A DNA stretch of 64,000 nucleotides from Hyphobacterium sp. CCMP332 (GTDB lineage: Bacteria; Bacteroidota; Bacteroidia; Cytophagales; CCMP332), in assembly GCA_014323545.1 (NCBI GenBank), contig CP058647.1, positions 2,334,001-2,398,000 on the forward strand, given 5' to 3'. Below the pieces are notes generated by a model. The model did not search any database. It was not told where the DNA came from and saw only the letters and a program-made list of their open reading frames with translations. Position numbers and translations under genes: made by a program. Of the stretch, positions 5,068 through 38,070 are shown piece by piece. Position 1 is the first letter of the stretch. The number at the start of each line of letters is the position of its first letter.

Positions 5068-6906
5068 TCAGGAATTTTGGAAATACGAATTAAATTCATT
5101 TAGCTCCATTTTCATAATGGTAGGATTACCATCGGGAGTATAGTTTGGCATACGGCAGGCAAATAATTGATCAATGATATTACGCATTTCGGTTTCGGTC
5201 AATTTTTTACCAATTCTAATGGCAGATCTTTTGGCCAGAGATCTTGCAAGATTTTCTTTTTTATTGATTTTAAGATTCTTTGTATTGTTTTTATACTGTT
5301 CTATCAATCCTTCAAACAACTCCTTTTCATCCTCCGCTTTTAAATTGGCAGGAAGGCCATTAATTACAATTGCATTTTCACCCATAGACTGAAAATCAAA
5401 ACCCAGGGACTTAATTTCTTTTTCGAGATCACTTACCAATTGAAAATCGGCAGCAGATAAATGCAGGGTCTTAGAAAATATAAACTGTTGGGATGATCCT
5501 TTTTGTGTATCGAGCTGATCTAAATATTTTTCATATAAAATTCTTTCATGCGCATTGGATTGCTCAATGATTACAAAACCCGATTTAATCTGGGTTATGA
5601 TATAGGCATTATGAATTTGAAATACGGCCTTTTCTTCAATTTTTTCTTCGGAAGGTAGGTTTTTAGAACTATCGCGATTTAAAGAGCTTTGTATGGTAAT
5701 GGATGTCCCATCATCCGACTCATTTTTCTCACCGAAGTCAGTGTAGAGTTTTTGCCAGTTTTCGATATTTCTATTGCCCTGAAAGCTCCCGTATTGACTT
5801 TCGCGATTTCTCCCTTCCACCATTTCACCTTTTTGAAATGCGAAACGAAAATTTTTTGCCTCATCGCTAAATTCATCGAGATTTACTTTTTTGCTAAAAT
5901 CCAGGCTTGGCGCAAAACTGTGGCTGCCCAGACTTTTTTTAGCGGCCGCCTGAATAATGCCATAAACGGTTCTTTCATCATCAAACTTAATTTCATTTTT
6001 AGTGGGATGTACGTTTACATCTATATGACTGGGGTCAATTTCAATAAAGATGACGTGAAAAGGAAAACTGTCGTCAGAAATCAAATCCTGATAGGCCATT
6101 TTAACAGCATGTTGTAAATAATTGCTTCTGACGTAGCGTTTATTGATAAAAAAATATTGCTCTCCTCTGGTTTTCTTAGCAGATTCCGGAGAACCCAGAT
6201 AACCCATTATTTCCAGAAGATCCGTTCTCTCTTCACAGGGCACAAGATTTTCTTTGTACTGTTTACCAAAAATTTGGATAATTCTTACGGCTAGTTTCGA
6301 AGGTTTGAGATTGAATACTTCTAGATCATTTTGGAAAAAATTAAAGGCTATTTCCGGATTGGCCAGGGCCACGCGTTGAAATTCATCGACAATATGCTTC
6401 ATTTCAACCGGATTGGATTTGAGGAAATTACGTCGGGCCGGGATATTGTAGAATAGATTTTTAACCAGGACCGAAGTGCCGGGATTCATGGCTATGGCCT
6501 CCTGTTTTTTAAATTCTCCGCCTTCATTTCGAATTAAAACTCCAAGTTCATCGCTTTCGCGTCTGGTTTTTAATTCCGTCTGAGAAACCGAGGCAATAGA
6601 AGCTATGGCTTCTCCCCTGAAGCCCATGGTTCTAATTTTAAACAAATCTTCAGCAGATTCAATTTTTGAAGTGGCGTGGCGCTCAAAACAGAGTCGTGCA
6701 TCCGTTTCGCTCATGCCTTGTCCGTCATCCACAACCTGAATTAGGGTCTTGCCCGCATCCTTGACAATAAGTGTGATATTTTTCGAACGTGCGTCTATGG
6801 CATTTTCAAGGAGTTCCTTAACCACTGAAGCTGGGCGTTGGACCACCTCTCCGGCTGCTATTTTATTAACTATGGCATCAGGTAATACCTTTATTATATC
6901 GTTCAT
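5068..6906 (-). CDS. mutL: DNA mismatch repair protein MutL
   Basis: 612 residues in the normal MutL length range. The N-terminal GHKL ATPase is intact: catalytic Glu34/Asn35 in ELLENAIDA, DDGQGM at 60-65, GFRGEA at 95-100, and the S5-fold segment ending NVHPTK at 298-303. The C-terminal dimerisation domain starts near residue 425. Its nuclease-type metal motif, normally DQHAxxER, reads EQSNAHER at 448-455. The usual ACR-like motif reads LAKRSAIRIG, while ACRMPNYTPDGNPTI near 583-597 retains the C-P-G-P pattern. MutL couples MutS mismatch recognition to strand incision; whether this protein nicks DNA itself is doubtful. It is followed downstream by two rhomboid genes. Confidence 0.96.
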   Translation of the reverse strand: MNDIIKVLPDAIVNKIAAGEVVQRPASVVKELLENAIDARSKNITLIVKDAGKTLIQVVDDGQGMSETDARLCFERHATSKIESAEDLFKIRTMGFRGEAIASIASVSQTELKTRRESDELGVLIRNEGGEFKKQEAIAMNPGTSVLVKNLFYNIPARRNFLKSNPVEMKHIVDEFQRVALANPEIAFNFFQNDLEVFNLKPSKLAVRIIQIFGKQYKENLVPCEERTDLLEIMGYLGSPESAKKTRGEQYFFINKRYVRSNYLQHAVKMAYQDLISDDSFPFHVIFIEIDPSHIDVNVHPTKNEIKFDDERTVYGIIQAAAKKSLGSHSFAPSLDFSKKVNLDEFSDEAKNFRFAFQKGEMVEGRNRESQYGSFQGNRNIENWQKLYTDFGEKNESDDGTSITIQSSLNRDSSKNLPSEEKIEEKAVFQIHNAYIITQIKSGFVIIEQSNAHERILYEKYLDQLDTQKGSSQQFIFSKTLHLSAADFQLVSDLEKEIKSLGFDFQSMGENAIVINGLPANLKAEDEKELFEGLIEQYKNNTKNLKINKKENLARSLAKRSAIRIGKKLTETEMRNIIDQLFACRMPNYTPDGNPTIMKMELNEFNSYFQNS

Positions 6907-11399: not shown

Positions 11400-12035
11400 A
11401 TGGCAACAAATACTCAAAAAACCAAGAATATAAACAGGGTAAAAGTTTTTGATAATCCTGTTTTAGAGTTACTTACAAAAACTCATATTGCTTTTCCATT
11501 AACGATCTTTCCTGTACTTTCAGCATGGATGATTTATATGGCTTATACCAGGTTTTTTTTAAGTTCTGTAGAAATTTGGGCTATCTTTTTCTTCTCTTTT
11601 CTTCTCTTTACACTCGTGGAATATATCGTTCATAGAAATGTATTTCACTGGGTTCCAAATACACCTTTAAAACAATTTATTCAATATCATTTTCACGGGG
11701 TTCATCATGCGGAACCAAAGGACAAGAAAAGATTAGCAATGCCAATAGTGGTTAGTCTGGCTTTGGCTTTTTTTACATTGGGTGTTGCATATTTGTTTAT
11801 TGGAAAATACTCATTTGTTTTTACTCCCGGATTTGCGATGGGATATACAGCCTATCTAGGTGTTCACTATATGGTTCACGCATACGCACCCCCGAAGGAA
11901 GGCCCTTTTAAAGTGTTATGGGTCAATCATGCCATTCACCACTATAAAGATGATTCTGTTGCTTTTGGGGTGTCATCTCCACTTTGGGATGTTGTTTTTG
12001 GTACTTTACCTCAAAAATCAAAAAAGGCAGCCTAA
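11400..12035 (+). CDS. Fatty acid hydroxylase superfamily membrane di-iron enzyme
   Basis: 211 residues with four or more membrane helices and the full histidine set of the fatty acid hydroxylase/sterol desaturase family: HRNVFH (78-83), HFHGVHH (97-103), HYMVH (156-160) and HAIHH (177-181). These residues bind a di-iron centre. The short length and the motif YHFHGVHH resemble the catalytic part of FA2H/Scs7-type 2-hydroxylases, which hydroxylate acyl chains of sphingolipids. Bacteroidota often make sphingolipids, so acyl or sphingoid-base hydroxylation is a reasonable inference. It has its own promoter and its 3' end overlaps the convergent kinase gene by 4 bp. Confidence 0.85.
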   Translation: MATNTQKTKNINRVKVFDNPVLELLTKTHIAFPLTIFPVLSAWMIYMAYTRFFLSSVEIWAIFFFSFLLFTLVEYIVHRNVFHWVPNTPLKQFIQYHFHGVHHAEPKDKKRLAMPIVVSLALAFFTLGVAYLFIGKYSFVFTPGFAMGYTAYLGVHYMVHAYAPPKEGPFKVLWVNHAIHHYKDDSVAFGVSSPLWDVVFGTLPQKSKKAA

Positions 12036-13465
12036 TCCTGTAGATGTTTTGAAATGGTAAAGTAAAAAGTCGTGCCGGTGTTAATTGCTGAATCAACCCA
12101 AATATCTCCGCGATGAAGGGTAACAATTTTTTTACAGTTTGAAAGTCCAATTCCGCTTCCTTCAATATTTTTATTATCAGGCGATCGATAAAATATTCTA
12201 AAAATGTCTTTTTGCATTTTTTCGGGTATGCCTTTTCCATTATCAGAAACAGAAAATTCCCAATGATCGGGTTTTTCTTTTGCTGATATTCTAATCTTAG
12301 GTGGACGATTTTCAATGCTGAATTTTATGGCATTGGAAATCAGGTTTTGAAATAAAAGTCTTATTTCCAGTTCATTGCCTATAATTGACGGTAGTTTTAC
12401 AATTTTCAAATCTGCTTTAGTTTTGTCAATTTCTGATTTCAGGTCATCTTCTATTTCACTGAGAATTGCCATTATATTTAATTTCTTAAATGATTCAATT
12501 TCTCCTAGCTGAGCATATTGAAGAATTCCTGAAATCAAAGTATTCATTCTTTCAGCAGAGTCTTTTATTTTCGTTATGTATACGCTCTCTTTGGCTTTGG
12601 GGTCTTTGTTATTTTCGGCCTGAACCAAATCGACAAGTCCTGTAATGGTATTAACAGGTGCTTTTAGGTCATGCGCTACAATATGTGCAAAAGATTCCAA
12701 TTCCTTATTTTTTGTTTCCAGTTCCAATGCTCTTACATCACTCAGATCGTTAATTATTAAGGTGTATGCAGAAATAGTTTTTCCAAACTTTATAGGGTTA
12801 ACAGATATTCTTGCATAAAAACTTGTCCCATCATTTCTTTTGAGCCAAAGCTTAAATACAGTATTCTTCTTAATTTCCGAAAGTTCAGTATAAGTAGGAG
12901 AGCTATTATTTGAATCGTTGAGTAGCTGTTTAAAATTCATGGAAAGGGCCGATTTTTCGGGGTAGCCAAATATATATTGGGCACCTATATTCCATGTTTC
13001 AATAATACCCATATGATTTACGAGTATGAATGCCTGATCTTTTATTTCATTGGTCATCATGCGGATTTTACTTTCATATCGTTTAATCTCTGAGGTCCTT
13101 TTCTTTACCTCTTTCTCCAGATTTTTTTGAAATGAATCCACAAAATCAAAACCGCGATGTGCTAAATTGACCAATATTACGGCTACCCAGAGTCCTGACA
13201 TTGAAATCATAAAGTTGATACTTTGGGCCTGGTCCTTTATTTCGCTTTGGTTATAATCTATTATTATGAGCAAAGCGATAAGCAAACCAAAAACTATTGA
13301 TACATATTTCCATTGCAGAATAAACACATATAATATTATTACCACATACATACCGGAAACAGTCAAGGAAGAATCAACATTTAGATCGACAATAAATACT
13401 ATTGCGGTTATTAAAAGCGCAAATAGAGTTAAAACGCTATTTCTAAATATGAATTTTTTGTCCAC
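12032..13465 (-). CDS. Membrane PAS-domain sensor histidine kinase
   Basis: 477 residues. Four predicted transmembrane helices lie within residues 10-103, followed by a coiled-coil linker (about 110-140), a PAS domain (about 142-245), a HisKA domain with phosphoacceptor His265 (IVAHDLKAPVNT), and a HATPase domain with N box (LISNAIKF), DNGKGIPE and GSGIGLSNCKK. It autophosphorylates and passes phosphate to an unidentified regulator; no receiver gene is adjacent. The gene begins 6 bp after the stop of the ethylene-receptor-like gene, strongly suggesting translational coupling and that the two form one signalling unit. The PAS and kinase parts resemble the cytoplasmic half of bacterial phytochrome/ETR-like kinases. 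Confidence 0.9.
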   Translation of the reverse strand: MDKKFIFRNSVLTLFALLITAIVFIVDLNVDSSLTVSGMYVVIILYVFILQWKYVSIVFGLLIALLIIIDYNQSEIKDQAQSINFMISMSGLWVAVILVNLAHRGFDFVDSFQKNLEKEVKKRTSEIKRYESKIRMMTNEIKDQAFILVNHMGIIETWNIGAQYIFGYPEKSALSMNFKQLLNDSNNSSPTYTELSEIKKNTVFKLWLKRNDGTSFYARISVNPIKFGKTISAYTLIINDLSDVRALELETKNKELESFAHIVAHDLKAPVNTITGLVDLVQAENNKDPKAKESVYITKIKDSAERMNTLISGILQYAQLGEIESFKKLNIMAILSEIEDDLKSEIDKTKADLKIVKLPSIIGNELEIRLLFQNLISNAIKFSIENRPPKIRISAKEKPDHWEFSVSDNGKGIPEKMQKDIFRIFYRSPDNKNIEGSGIGLSNCKKIVTLHRGDIWVDSAINTGTTFYFTISKHLQD

Positions 13466-13471
13466 CTAAAG

Positions 13472-14053
13472 TCAATAGTTTGAATTATGTCCTGAAATTT
13501 GATCTGTCAATTTTAAAATTGATTTTTCTTTTTCACTGAGTATCTGTCGCAACATAAACAGTTCATTTTCAAGATCTGAGATTTTCTCTTCCGCATCTTC
13601 ACGTTGATCTTTTTCTTCATTCAGGGATTCAGGACTTCTGAGCGATAAAAAAGTTGGAAGGTCTTTTATCAATGCAAAAACAGTTAATACACTGACTATA
13701 GCTGTAATAAATCGAATGAGTGCACTCAATCTGTAAGCCGGCCACCAAAATATAATTGCATCCATAATATGGGTGGCTCCGCAAAAAATTATAAATGCGC
13801 TAAACAACCAATAAAAGGATAAAAAGGGTATATCCGGTCTTTTTTGAACAAACCACAATATGATTACAGGTATAATAAAATAAGCCAGCCATATTGACAC
13901 ATCGCTCATGATATAAAGCCATCCGTGAAATTCACTCCAGGTACCACAAATCCATCTTGGTGGCCAGTCTGAGGTGTTAAATAGGTTCGAAAAGAATTCT
14001 GAGATCTGGTCCATAAGAATAGTTTTTACAGGTTTGTTTGAAAGAAATTTCAA
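13472..14053 (-). CDS. Free-standing ethylene-binding-domain-like membrane protein
   Basis: 193 residues. Three transmembrane helices match the plant ETR1 ethylene-binding domain closely: MSDVSIWLAYFIIP (50-62), SAFIIFCGATHIMDA (85-99), and a third helix about 111-130 ending KDLPTFLSL. Residues that define the copper/ethylene site in ETR1 (Asp25, Tyr32, Ile35, Pro36, Cys65, His69) correspond to Asp51, Tyr58, Ile61, Pro62, Cys91 and His95. The 40-residue gap between Asp and Cys is identical. After the membrane part comes a coiled coil (about 145-188) like the ETR1 linker, and then the protein stops. There is no kinase or GAF domain; the histidine kinase gene follows 6 bp later. Ligand (ethylene, copper or other) is inferred. 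A second possible start is Met14. Confidence 0.85.
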   Translation of the reverse strand: MKFLSNKPVKTILMDQISEFFSNLFNTSDWPPRWICGTWSEFHGWLYIMSDVSIWLAYFIIPVIILWFVQKRPDIPFLSFYWLFSAFIIFCGATHIMDAIIFWWPAYRLSALIRFITAIVSVLTVFALIKDLPTFLSLRSPESLNEEKDQREDAEEKISDLENELFMLRQILSEKEKSILKLTDQISGHNSNY

Positions 14054-14148: not shown

Positions 14149-15219
14149 TTATAGCCATTTCTTTCGTTGAAAATAAATCAGCATGCCTACAAAAATTAAA
14201 ATCATTATACCCCATACTACAAAATAACCATAGCGAAAGCCCAATTCGGGCATATATTCAAAATTCATCCCATATATTCCTGCAACAAAAGTCAATGGAA
14301 TAAATATAGAAGCCATGATCGTAAGCACTTTCATGATCTGATTCATTTTATGGCCGAGCAAGGAAGTATGTAATTCGAGAAGAGAAGTAAGCGATTCTTT
14401 TTGAGATTCTACTGTTTCCTGTATTTGAATGACATGATCATAAACATCATTGAGATAAATAAGCGTGCTTTCTTCAAAAAATTCATTCTCATCTTTTTTT
14501 AATGTGGTCAGCATTTCTCTAAGGGGTGTAACAACCTTCCGGAAATTGATTATTTTATTTTTAAGTTTTTGTACTTCAAAAATGAATTCATTTGTTGAGT
14601 CAATTAATACTCTTTTGTCAAGAACTTCGATTTTTTCATTGATGTGTTCAATAATAAAGAAGTAATGATCAACGATGGTATCCAATAATCGATACAATAA
14701 ATAATCATTTCCTCTTTTCCGCAATGGGCGTTTGATGTCTTTTGCTCTGTGTCGAAGACCATCGAAAATATCGCCTTGCTTCTCCTGAAAGGAAATCAAC
14801 CAATTTTCACCTAAAATAAAACTAATCTGTTCTGTTATGATGTGTTTTTGATCGCCGGATATTCCCAGCATTTTTAAAGAAATGAACAAAAACTCATCGT
14901 GTTCTTCCAACTGAGGACGCAGTCTTGTGTTTAGAACATCTTCAAGCACCAATGGGTGAATGCCAAAGTGCTCTCCTAATTTTGCAATATTATCAGTTTC
15001 ATGTAAACCGTCGATATTGATCCAACTGACCGATTTTTTATCCTTGAAGGGAAAAACATCCTCGATTTTCTTGCATTCGGTCTCACTTAGTTCTTCGGGA
15101 TTATAGTCAAATACGGTAATCCTTTGTTCTTCGGTAGTTTTTTTACCAATATGTATTAATGTACCGGGAGGCAATCCGGCCTTTTTTGACATAAAATTTT
15201 CTGTATTAGTCATCGGCAT
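14149..15219 (-). CDS. corA: CorA-type Mg2+/Co2+ transporter
   Basis: 356 residues. A long cytoplasmic alpha/beta and helical funnel domain is followed by two C-terminal transmembrane helices with the signature Tyr316-Gly-Met-Asn319 between them and a basic end (QRKKWL). The segment HPLVLEDVLNTRLRPQLEEHD is typical of the CorA N-terminal domain. It imports divalent cations through a pentameric channel. The listed ATG overlaps the mscS gene by 14 bp. In-frame ATGs at 15213 and 15192 are alternatives; the last avoids overlap and precedes the conserved KAGLPPGTLIHIG. Co-transcription with mscS is likely. Confidence 0.92.
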   Translation of the reverse strand: MPMTNTENFMSKKAGLPPGTLIHIGKKTTEEQRITVFDYNPEELSETECKKIEDVFPFKDKKSVSWINIDGLHETDNIAKLGEHFGIHPLVLEDVLNTRLRPQLEEHDEFLFISLKMLGISGDQKHIITEQISFILGENWLISFQEKQGDIFDGLRHRAKDIKRPLRKRGNDYLLYRLLDTIVDHYFFIIEHINEKIEVLDKRVLIDSTNEFIFEVQKLKNKIINFRKVVTPLREMLTTLKKDENEFFEESTLIYLNDVYDHVIQIQETVESQKESLTSLLELHTSLLGHKMNQIMKVLTIMASIFIPLTFVAGIYGMNFEYMPELGFRYGYFVVWGIMILIFVGMLIYFQRKKWL

Positions 15220-16087
15220 TCAATTTTGCGTTGGGCGGTAGATCATTTTTATAGACAATGGTGTGATAAGGGAATGGTATTTCAACCCCTTCCGCATCAA
15301 ATCTTTTTTTAATAGCGATATTGATATCGGAGTGCATTTGTATTGCATTAATTGGATCATTGGTCCATACATAAGCTCTTAAATTAAGACTTGAATTTCC
15401 AAATTCCAGCAATCTTACATTGACCGGATGCCGGCCCTTTTTTATCTGCTCCTCAGTTCTGTTATCGATACAACTTGGATGCTTCATGGCTTCTTCCTGA
15501 ATAATTTTTGTGGCCAGCTCTATGTCACTGTCATAGCTTATTCCCACTTCTACCCAGCGACAGACCGTTTCCTCCTGAATACTGTCGTTGATGATGTATT
15601 CATTGCTAATAATGGCATTGGGAATAATTACTCTTTTGTTTTCAAAATTTAAAATGATGGTGTGCTGAAGTGTTATGTCCTCGACAATACCGTGATAGTC
15701 CGAAACGCGAATCATATCACCTACACGAAAGGGCTTAAAAATGACAATAAAAATTCCACTTATGATATTTGAAAACGAAGCCTGGGCGGCAAAACCAACC
15801 GCTGCAACCAAAATACCGGCACCGGCGAAAATTGTAACCGCAAATGTTTTAAGACTTGGAATTCTTGAAATAATCATTCCAAGTGCCATTAGCCAAATAA
15901 TGAAGGATACGGCATTTTTAAAAAATGAATATTTAGTAGTATCGGCCTGAAATTTTTCCTGAGCCGTATGCATTGCCCTGTTGATCAGCCAGCGGGCTAT
16001 TCTGGATACAATTATGGCTCCAAATAAAATTATACTCGTAGCTATGACATGGGTCCAAATTGGCTCCAGGCTTTTAAAGTATTCCAT
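15206..16087 (-). CDS. MscS family mechanosensitive channel
   Basis: 293 residues, similar in size to E. coli MscS. Helices lie at about 14-34 and 58-76, then the pore helix TM3 (about 83-115) with the Gly/Ala-rich packing pattern GAGILVAAVGFAAQASFSNI. The beta domain (FKPFRVGDMIRVSDYHGIVEDI) and the C-terminal alpha/beta domain ending IPFPYHTIVYKND follow. It opens under membrane tension to release solutes during hypo-osmotic shock. It precedes corA and overlaps it, forming a small ion-transport operon. Confidence 0.92.
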   Translation of the reverse strand: MEYFKSLEPIWTHVIATSIILFGAIIVSRIARWLINRAMHTAQEKFQADTTKYSFFKNAVSFIIWLMALGMIISRIPSLKTFAVTIFAGAGILVAAVGFAAQASFSNIISGIFIVIFKPFRVGDMIRVSDYHGIVEDITLQHTIILNFENKRVIIPNAIISNEYIINDSIQEETVCRWVEVGISYDSDIELATKIIQEEAMKHPSCIDNRTEEQIKKGRHPVNVRLLEFGNSSLNLRAYVWTNDPINAIQMHSDINIAIKKRFDAEGVEIPFPYHTIVYKNDLPPNAKLNADD

Positions 16088-16154
16088 ATATGTGTTATTC
16101 CTGCATTAATCTAATCATTGCGTATTAAATAGGGAAATGAAATAGCGAAACAAA

Positions 16155-16862
16155 TCAGTCCCTGCTTAGCCAAAACTGCTTCACTGATTCATTATAGGAT
16201 CTTCCTATTGGGATATTAATATTACCCAGACTTACCTCATTTGCTGAAATCGCATGTATTTTTGTAGAATTAACAATGTAGGAGCGATGGATTCTTATAA
16301 ATGATTTTACCGGAACAATGCTCAGCACCTCCTCCATTGTCATTCGAGAAATTATTTCTCTATTTCCATTCAGGTAAAATATGACCTTCTCTCTTTTGCT
16401 TTCGATATAATTGATTTCATCTGGAAAGATCTTAAAATATCTATTCTGACTTTTTATTTCTATGGAGGAATTGTTGCTGTCTTTTTGATGAAAAGAAGCT
16501 TTCTTTAATTGCAATAATAGACGTTGAACAGTGTTGGCGAAACGCACTTTTGAATAGGGTTTTAGCAAATAATCAAATACTTCAAAATCAAAGGCTTCTA
16601 TAGCATGCTCTGCGTATGCACTGCATATAACCACAAGTGGCCGATTTTTAACAATTTTCAGAAATTCCATACCCGTAATTCCCGGCAGTTGTATATCCAG
16701 AAAAATTACATCTACTTGATTTTCAATCAGAAATGATTGGGCTTTGAAAGCGTCATAAAAATGTGCTTTGCATTCTATGTTTTCGTGATCAGCAATGAAA
16801 TTTCTAAATATTTCAATAGCCGGTTCTTCATCTTCAACCAGTATACATGAAATCTTATCCAT
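16155..16862 (-). CDS. LytTR-type response regulator
   Basis: 235 residues. The receiver domain (about 4-118) has the acidic pocket (VEDEEP), phosphoacceptor Asp56 (VIFLDIQLPG) and the Lys of LLKPYSK. The LytTR DNA-binding domain covers about 132-232 (YFKIFPDEINYIESKREKV, SFIRIHRSYIVN). It binds direct repeats upstream of targets when phosphorylated. Its start overlaps the upstream kinase gene by 8 bp, so it is the cognate regulator of that LytS-like kinase. Confidence 0.93.
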   Translation of the reverse strand: MDKISCILVEDEEPAIEIFRNFIADHENIECKAHFYDAFKAQSFLIENQVDVIFLDIQLPGITGMEFLKIVKNRPLVVICSAYAEHAIEAFDFEVFDYLLKPYSKVRFANTVQRLLLQLKKASFHQKDSNNSSIEIKSQNRYFKIFPDEINYIESKREKVIFYLNGNREIISRMTMEEVLSIVPVKSFIRIHRSYIVNSTKIHAISANEVSLGNINIPIGRSYNESVKQFWLSRD

Positions 16863-17871
16863 TTAAATAGGGTATTCTTAAATAAGTTGTAAACTCATTG
16901 GCTTTGTCTTCCTGCACAAGCTCATAATCGTTTTCGTAAATCAAATTTAGCTGAGATCTGATATTGTCAAGGCCGATGCCTTTGGCATAACCGGTTTCAT
17001 CTTTTTGATATTCAAATTTGGAGTTTCGTATTTCGAAAATTAAATGTTTATCTCCTGCATTTAAATTTATAAAAACATAACTGTCTGCTTTTTGCGCGCT
17101 GACCCCATGTTTAAAACTATTTTCTACAAAGGCGAAAAGCGTTAAAGGTGAGATATTTTTTAAGGTATTTTCCGTCCCATTAATGTCAAACTTAATTTTT
17201 AAGCGCTTGCCATAACGCATTTGTTCGAGAGAGATATAATTGTCTATTAGTTCTATTTCCTTGCTCAGTGGCATAGCTCGATTTTGACATTCATAAAGCA
17301 TAAAGCGCAGAATATCGGAAACTTTTAAGAGCATTTCGGCGGCATCATCGGATTTTTTTAGTACTTCATTATAAATTCCGTTCAGCGTATTAAAGAGAAA
17401 GTGCGGATGAATCTGGGCTTTGTAAAAATTTAATTCTGCCTGTTTTTTCTCTGAGATAAGGAGTTTTTTGCGTTGATCCCAATTTCTTTTATCCAATAAA
17501 TATTGAAAAGTACCAAAAGCACCAATCCCTGTAGCAATCACGAGGTATTGACTTGCTATCCTATACCAATTAAAAAAGGTAAAAGTATAATCCTGATCAA
17601 AATAATAGGGAAAAATAAAAATTGAAAAATTCAATCTGATCAATAGGCCTGTGGCGAGAATGCAGATCACGGAAAAGAGGACTTTTTTATAAATCTCTAG
17701 CTTTTCCTTTTTCAGGATGGAATAAAAAATGATGTAGGTACAAATGGCAACTAAAGGAACCCTTAGAATATTCATTAGGAATGCCCCCTTCCAAAGGCCA
17801 TCGTACAAGGCAGAAATAATTGTCAGAATTACCAGATAGCAAAACCAAAAAATGAAATGCCACAACTTCAT
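16855..17871 (-). CDS. LytS/YpdA-type sensor histidine kinase
   Basis: 338 residues. About four transmembrane helices occupy residues 4-125. A short helical linker leads into the His_kinase (PF06580) domain with phosphoacceptor His157 in AQIHPHFLFNTLNGIYNE, and then a HATPase domain (VENSFKHGV, GIGLDNIRSQL). No extracytoplasmic sensor domain is evident, so the signal is probably membrane-related. It overlaps the LytTR regulator gene by 8 bp. The upstream spacer to the divergent VCBS gene is 192 bp, which could be a target for autoregulation. Confidence 0.92.
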   Translation of the reverse strand: MKLWHFIFWFCYLVILTIISALYDGLWKGAFLMNILRVPLVAICTYIIFYSILKKEKLEIYKKVLFSVICILATGLLIRLNFSIFIFPYYFDQDYTFTFFNWYRIASQYLVIATGIGAFGTFQYLLDKRNWDQRKKLLISEKKQAELNFYKAQIHPHFLFNTLNGIYNEVLKKSDDAAEMLLKVSDILRFMLYECQNRAMPLSKEIELIDNYISLEQMRYGKRLKIKFDINGTENTLKNISPLTLFAFVENSFKHGVSAQKADSYVFINLNAGDKHLIFEIRNSKFEYQKDETGYAKGIGLDNIRSQLNLIYENDYELVQEDKANEFTTYLRIPYLNG

Positions 17872-37659: not shown

Positions 37660-38070
37660 ATGGCTAAAAATAAAATAAAAGCGGTAATGCTAATCGATGA
37701 TAATGAAATTGATAATCTCATTAATCAAAAGATGATTGAAGCTGCAAATATTTGTGAAAACATCTACACGCATACCGGAGCCAAAAGCGCCATTGAATTT
37801 TTAAAAAATCTTGAAAAAATGTCGGATTCGGTCAATGATTTTTTCCCTGAACTCATTTTTTTGGATATTGATATGCCTTTGATGGATGGGTTTCAATTTC
37901 TGGACGAATTCGAAAAACTATCCAACGAAACCAAGGGTAAAATTAAAATTGTAATGCTCACCTCTTCAATTAATCCACAGGATATGAGCAAAGCAAAAAA
38001 ATATTCCTACGTCAAAAAATATATCAACAAGCCTCTGACGCAGGAAAATATTGAGAAATTGGAAATTTGA
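37660..38070 (+). CDS. Single-domain response regulator
   Basis: 136 residues, receiver domain only: acidic pair Asp13/Asp14 (LIDDNEIDN), phosphoacceptor Asp69 (LIFLDIDMP), Thr/Ser of MLTSS and the conserved Lys of YINKPLT. This group of CheY-like proteins in Bacteroidota typically opens with a IDDNEIDN motif. No kinase or output gene is adjacent, so partners are unknown. Convergent with the next gene, only 1 bp apart. Confidence 0.92.
   Translation: MAKNKIKAVMLIDDNEIDNLINQKMIEAANICENIYTHTGAKSAIEFLKNLEKMSDSVNDFFPELIFLDIDMPLMDGFQFLDEFEKLSNETKGKIKIVMLTSSINPQDMSKAKKYSYVKKYINKPLTQENIEKLEI

Follow-up and report, generated by a model that had tools for sequence, protein, structure and literature searches.

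Ethylene receptors found in published work, as far as excerpts of the sources describe them, are single chains, and because of this ligand binding has been hard to separate from signalling. A stretch of 64,000 nucleotides from Hyphobacterium sp. CCMP332 (GCA_014323545.1, contig CP058647.1, positions 2,334,001 to 2,398,000; hereafter the window, whose positions are used unless another locus is named) raises the question of whether the binding domain and the kinase of such a receptor can also be two proteins. On its minus strand, a small membrane protein with the ETR1_N domain is followed after 6 bp by the gene of a sensor histidine kinase, and an initial annotation had proposed that the two form a receptor for ethylene or copper. 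A two-protein unit is well supported at gene level by the genome comparisons below; the complex and its ligand are put forward here as a probable reading, which we favour by a little over its alternatives taken together.

The small protein and its partner kinase

Both genes were found where the initial annotation had placed them, with the spacing it gave. The small gene is an open frame at 13472-14053 (minus) that reads 193 amino acids (aa) from TTG 14053. By profile and by residues its product is a member of the ETR1_N family: in a Pfam scan PF25487 matched residues 43-138 (13640-13927, minus; E 2.9e-33, 114.4 bits against a curated cut-off of 27), which is far beyond chance and settles the profile search that had been proposed as a check. 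TPD52, the one other Pfam family listed for the protein, was below its cut-off, and the window protein was the single ETR1_N match in the 3.33-Mb genome of the host. In a 13-row alignment, 10 of the 12 homologues begin at Met14 of the 193-aa reading and the remaining two have a Met there, so the true start is probably ATG 14014. The stand-alone protein would then cover 13472-14014 (minus) and measure 180 aa; the open frame of 193 codons is as first described, and the length given to the protein is probably too long.

Asp51, Tyr58, Ile61, Pro62, Cys91 and His95, to which attention had been drawn, are all present at the spacing of ETR1, and a seventh residue, Ile88 (ETR1 Ile62), is kept too, all seven at a constant offset (D38, Y45, I48, P49, I75, C78 and H82 in 180-aa numbering). 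Their counterparts are Asp25, Tyr32, Ile35, Pro36, Ile62, Cys65 and His69, which we take to be the ETR1 residues required for ethylene binding. The same columns hold in AzoEtr1, whose sequence was taken from the database. Seven residues are described as required for ethylene binding by ETR1 (PMC11819568), whose copper site consists of Asp25, Cys65 and His69 (PMC12643061).

The seven residues spread over three membrane helices, which are predicted from hydropathy and from a structure model of the 180-aa protein (predicted local distance difference test, pLDDT, 72; helices 28-58, 64-89, 92-123 and 128-177). The last helix is long and lies at 13484-13633 (minus), after which the protein ends; this much of the initial description holds, and the coiled coil that it named may be this helix. 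A fold search with the binding subunit was not informative: the best of its 44 matches had E 1.6, and not one reached E <= 0.001. No solved structure of an ETR1_N binding domain was found in our searches, and full-length ETR1 with its membrane domain is said in a 2025 paper not to have been crystallised despite decades of effort (PMC12643061).

The kinase gene (12032-13465, minus) starts with GTG and encodes 477 aa; the 6 bp before it (13466-13471, minus) belong to the junction TGA-CTT-TAG-GTG. It is an orthodox sensor kinase, with matches to PAS_9 (12737-13036, minus; E 3.9e-9), HisKA, the dimerisation and phospho-acceptor domain (PF00512; 12503-12697, minus; E 1.7e-10), and the catalytic HATPase_c (PF02518; 12050-12376, minus; E 3.2e-27), and with the phospho-acceptor His265 and the N, G1 and G2 motifs all in place. 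The initial annotation had given it four membrane helices of its own besides the PAS domain, and hydropathy bears this out: the hydrophobic stretches N-terminal to PAS fit four helices, and the helices of a low-confidence model agree. This N-terminal membrane domain (13163-13438, minus), supported by hydropathy and by a search with a profile of it (A2, below), is characteristic of the split system and was recognisable in 19 of 19 split-system kinases. Among 13 members scanned, no Pfam family was over its cut-off (MASE8, E 0.022, was listed below cut-off for one, the window's own), and there was no PDB match at E <= 1. By profile it represents a divergent variant of a four-helix domain of wider occurrence, since eight weak matches sit in other proteins whose loci lack ETR1_N. 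No occurrence of the kinase in viral contigs was confirmed.

Recurrence of the pair

The ETR1_N family was surveyed in overlapping draws of relatives, phylum, class and order genomes (L numbers below are loci and G numbers genomes of this analysis). It was present in 11 of 59 relatives (10 over cut-off), in 21 of 395 phylum genomes, in 21 of 395 class genomes (15 over cut-off) and in 85 of 390 order genomes (84 over cut-off). In the phylum and class draws the only over-cut-off gene with a short open frame was that of the window, the others having at least 304 aa. The order draw held 16 genes with short frames (< 260 aa), the window's and 15 others, and all 15 loci were retrieved: in 11 the gene encodes a stand-alone ETR1_N protein (154-184 aa) and the next gene downstream is a kinase, in L065 and L078 the protein also stands alone but the locus has no kinase core, L074 runs into a contig end, and L079 (G571) is broken, its ETR1_N gene lying in two short open frames. 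The same pair, with its kinase frame interrupted, occurs in the Crocinitomicaceae metagenome-assembled genome (MAG) McLGI.31 (L017).

To approach the pairing from the kinase side, profile A2 was built on the first 122 residues of the kinase (13 training rows, 12 of them from order-draw genomes). Among the matches listed it was found in 12 of 390 order genomes, exactly those with the split protein and once in each; presence in those 12 follows by construction, absence from the other 378 does not, and with at most 11 scored candidates per genome the sensitivity is limited. A further draw, 216 genomes from a single family around G757, gave 20 genomes with a match. Fourteen of these score at least 114 bits (eight in training, six new), and each of the six new matches has a stand-alone ETR1_N protein directly upstream (that of L102 is cut by a contig end). 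The other six genomes gave the eight weak matches (30-41 bits).

The known pairs therefore number 19: that of the window, 11 from the order draw, L017 and six from the family draw, the relatives of the L017 genome lying outside the search. The initial annotation had suggested tabulating whether the neighbouring kinase is conserved, and so tabulated the pair recurs in 18 other genomes. Its remark that the split form is unusual in Bacteroidota is right in that such genes are a minority among ETR1_N genes, but the form is not peculiar to this genome. The unit is well supported at gene level because the pair recurs in 18 genomes and because, among the matches listed for the 390 order genomes, this kinase type was seen solely beside the split protein.

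All 19 split proteins retain Asp, Tyr, Pro, Cys, His and the second Ile, and 18 retain the first Ile, which is Leu in the remaining one; loss of Cys91 or His95 in orthologues, which would have spoken against the initial proposal, was thus not observed. A Cys before the first helix is kept in all 18 split proteins that reach that far (L102 is cut by the contig end). Of the 49 other ETR1_N rows, every one has the Cys and the His, and 45 have the Asp.

At the junctions, as read here, stop and start codons overlap as TAATG, TGATG or ATGA in 14 of 19 pairs; L100 and L101 would overlap given GTG or TTG starts, and L066, L102 and the window have no overlap. These start-stop overlaps at most junctions suggest translational coupling of the pair. 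Measured against the small gene, the reading frame of the kinase is +2 in 17 of the 19 pairs, +1 in L066 and 0 in the window, where both genes share one frame, yet two in-frame stops stand between them.

A receiver-only regulator follows the pair in 15 of 19 cases (10 of 11 order-draw pairs and five of the six new ones); in L100 and L101 the locus cuts the regulator gene, whose whole frames are 172 and 144 aa, and the two adjoining regulators that were scanned are both Response_reg. L071 has none beside its pair; the regulator found in its genome (184 bits) lies at a distance of about 100 kb. In L102 and L017 no regulator was seen, the loci reaching 390 and about 350 nt, respectively, beyond the kinase. 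In the window, an orphan receiver-only regulator (Response_reg) at 37660-38070 (plus) scores best in the host genome against a profile of the operon regulators (E 3.0e-30, 106 bits; next 8.8e-7). It was downgraded to a weak candidate for a third partner, as a genome of the same family that lacks ETR1_N contains a match just as good (108 bits).

Upstream of the pair and in the same direction (14149-17871, minus) are genes for CorA, an MscS-type channel, and a LytTR regulator with its His_kinase partner. This block was not noticed upstream of the split pair in the neighbourhoods read, for which no dedicated test was made.

Origin of the split and related systems

In a tree of the ETR1_N domain (62 rows; two of 64 were dropped, L005 for an internal stop and L079 as broken, and the six later pairs are absent), the 13 split proteins form one clade (support 99/92), with one change against 12.1 in shuffles. 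A tree of the kinase cores, also of 62 rows, contained 18 split kinases, L017 being left out, and few kinases without ETR1_N. The 18 fall in a group of 26 at 94/97, just under the program's mark of 95, together with the fused ETR1_N kinases L016, L043, L005, L008, L009, L036 and L055 and one long-branched kinase without ETR1_N, L105. They come to lie on one side of a branch at 74/78 alone, with rows of no group left out, and their closest relative may still be something other than the fused ETR1_N kinases. The simplest story would be that a fused receptor underwent fission and that its kinase acquired a new membrane domain. L016, from a Flavobacteriales MAG (JANQJC010000025.1), shares with the split system a binding domain of 57% identity, a kinase core of the same group (94/97) and a receiver-only regulator, which here overlaps the kinase gene; it differs in being one protein, and perhaps has the look of the pre-split ancestor.

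Further forms were seen beside these. L065 and L078 have a long polar tail, fall outside the split clade in the ETR1_N tree and are independent orphan forms. In an Owenweeksia sp. MAG (JANQHO010000169.1), L019 carries at about 5992-6358 a frame-broken ETR1_N remnant that is 82% identical to the window protein over its best-matching stretch (query residues 14-68), and the 12-kb locus contains no kinase core; the split system seems to decay in some relatives, L019 being the instance. Plasmid records matching ETR1_N numbered 18, and regions of four were inspected for stand-alone forms outside Bacteroidota. None was retained: the annotation of H1 shows a gene in pieces, H8 is a match to AzoEtr1, H7 adjoins a transposase and H2 is unannotated. 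On the Acaryochloris plasmid pMB03 (L113), an IS1-family transposase comes after an ETR1_N coding stretch and before the gene of an ATP-binding protein, and may have inserted into a receptor gene. A planctomycete MAG match (L018) was set aside since it runs off its contig.

Over 130 aa the window protein shares 42% identity with AzoEtr1, represented by the 525-aa Azospirillum brasilense protein of strain 2020WEIHUA_K, which fits the published description of AzoEtr1 from strain Sp7. Residues 1-130 of AzoEtr1 (PMC11819568) and of SynEtr1 (PMC6682694), each expressed in yeast as a glutathione S-transferase fusion, bind ethylene, so that a binding domain without its kinase suffices. AzoEtr1 and the window protein have in common the seven residues and the N-terminal Cys, and AzoEtr1 resembles the split system in its PAS and kinase output; a 135-aa receiver-only regulator overlaps its kinase gene (PMC11819568), comparable to the regulators beside 15 of 19 split systems. 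It differs in that binding domain and kinase are in one 525-aa protein, and the available text describes no extra four-helix membrane domain. SynEtr1 of Synechocystis and GeiEtr1/2 of Geitlerinema (available text of PMC6682694) likewise have an ETR1_N-type domain, a likeness stated here without an alignment, whereas their kinase is fused, with further domains such as GAF or PAS between.

The plant receptors ETR1 and ERS1 have a three-helix binding domain with a Cu(I) site of Asp25, Cys65 and His69, for which the matching residues are present in the small protein, and form N-terminally disulfide-linked dimers, to be compared with the conserved Cys before helix 1. They differ in being fused to GAF and kinase, in residing in the endoplasmic reticulum membrane and in signalling through CTR1 and EIN2. 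Separate membrane sensor subunits that act in trans on a transducer or kinase are known from sensory rhodopsin II-HtrII and UhpC-UhpB; these are work-alikes only, their proteins and ligands being unrelated to the split system. The fusion seen in published receptors is absent from the window pair, which is encoded by separate genes, and for this reason it is an ethylene-receptor-like two-protein system and not an ethylene receptor proper. Literature searches, in which subscription journals were mostly not covered, returned no report of a split ethylene receptor, and priority is not claimed.

A different ETR1_N architecture came up in the same survey. The 1532-aa protein of L080 (3940-8538 of that locus; G237) contains, in order, a heavy-metal-associated domain, an E1-E2 ATPase (Cu P1B-type, CPC motif), ETR1_N (E 2.4e-30), PAS domains and a histidine kinase, so that by its domains it joins a copper pump and an ethylene-receptor-like kinase in one chain. 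L081 (G423) has the same frame length and motif order, with the kinase core present; in L126 (G1329) pump motifs and ETR1_N share one frame and the kinase end is cut off by the contig end. Three of the six ETR1_N genes found across 80 genomes of that family look to be of this type, and these three belong to a single genus; L080 and L081 have Asn at the Asp25 position. In plants the pump RAN1, a separate protein, supplies copper to ETR1, and the handover mechanism has been posed as an open question (PMC12744750). No report of a pump-receptor fusion was found in literature searches with the same coverage.

A probable receptor in two subunits and its alternatives

The reading that we consider somewhat more probable than not is that of a two-subunit, probably Cu(I)-loaded ethylene receptor in which the binding subunit controls the kinase in trans. 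What the data show directly is the homology of the domains, the conservation of the residues, kinase motifs that are intact, a gene pairing kept across genomes with overlaps at most junctions, and one clade of split proteins. Loading with Cu(I), ethylene as the ligand, formation of the complex, contact through coiled coils and the direction of the signal are all inferred, and the mechanism is conditional on them. The small ETR1_N protein would be the ligand-binding subunit in the membrane, its three helices holding Cu(I) through Cys78 and His82 with Asp38 and binding ethylene; the host genome encodes a CopA-like copper pump with CxxC and CPC motifs. Two copies could be joined through the Cys conserved just ahead of the first membrane helix, much as plant receptors are. 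The cytoplasmic coiled-coil tail of the subunit would dock on a coiled coil of the kinase after its fourth membrane helix, the ligand state would set autophosphorylation at His265, and the phosphoryl group would pass to the receiver-only regulator, which adjoins the pair in most relatives and not in the window.

Several points weigh against this. The window pair has no adjoining response regulator, and in the assembly of G1108, the genome of L102, no regulator match exceeds 99.5 bits anywhere. L065 (G457) and L078 (G753) have no kinase core within their 14-kb loci. The kinase carries its own membrane domain and so could sense something else, and its structure model (pLDDT 52.7, from 3 sequences) served for helix positions alone. 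Contact between subunit and kinase is so far a postulate. Distances of the small protein are correlated with those of the kinase membrane domain (r 0.90) and with those of the kinase core (r 0.94; 17 pairs and 0 of 5000 permutations in both); the correlation counts in favour of the reading but is also expected from simple co-inheritance of the unit.

Other explanations must be set against the two-subunit ethylene receptor. The split subunit might bind Cu(I) yet report copper, silver, CO or another Cu(I) ligand to the kinase: three of the seven residues double as the copper site (Asp25, Cys65 and His69 in ETR1; PMC12643061), and beyond the seven no ethylene-specific feature can be read from the sequence. 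The four non-copper residues (Tyr, two Ile and Pro), however, are kept in 19 of 19 bar one Ile-to-Leu change, and the bacterial relatives AzoEtr1 and SynEtr1 bind ethylene; we hold this alternative to be possible, if unlikely. Somewhat doubtful too, and in our judgement improbable, is a kinase that senses its own signal via the four-helix domain, with the ETR1_N protein as an auxiliary modulator and the pair as a coincidence detector. It would account for a kinase membrane domain recognisable in all 19 and for the occurrence of the wider domain in proteins without ETR1_N in the locus (the eight weak matches of 30-41 bits), but the close form of the domain was not found, among the matches listed, without an adjoining ETR1_N protein.

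That the two proteins are co-transcribed but independent, the ETR1_N protein scavenging or buffering copper or ethylene and never touching the kinase, would agree with a contact that is so far only inferred and with the stand-alone L065 and L078, which lack a kinase in their loci. We think it very improbable, as the overlaps at 14 of 19 junctions and the strict pairing point to a fixed stoichiometry, and the split kinase cores group (94/97) with fused ETR1_N kinase cores. An artefact, in which a fused receptor gene was broken by sequencing error or recent mutation, could appeal to the frame that the window genes happen to share; against it stand the two in-frame stops, a kinase in another frame in 18 of 19 pairs, the extra membrane domain of the kinase and the recurrence of the pair in 19 genomes. 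Such an origin is hardly conceivable, and a split by sequencing error or a single stop is ruled out by frames and recurrence.

A more far-reaching version of the two-subunit ethylene receptor, which we offer tentatively, is a trans-acting two-input gas receptor: ethylene, sensed via Cu(I), and a second membrane signal would be merged across a heteromeric complex, the binding domain having been freed by fission while the kinase kept the receptor core and took on the four-helix sensor. If this is true, the small protein would be a natural minimal ethylene-binding subunit, in a type of receptor not found in our literature searches. With a separate binding subunit of about 155-180 aa and its natural partner kinase, binding, copper loading, dimerisation and kinase control may become separable in a bacterium.

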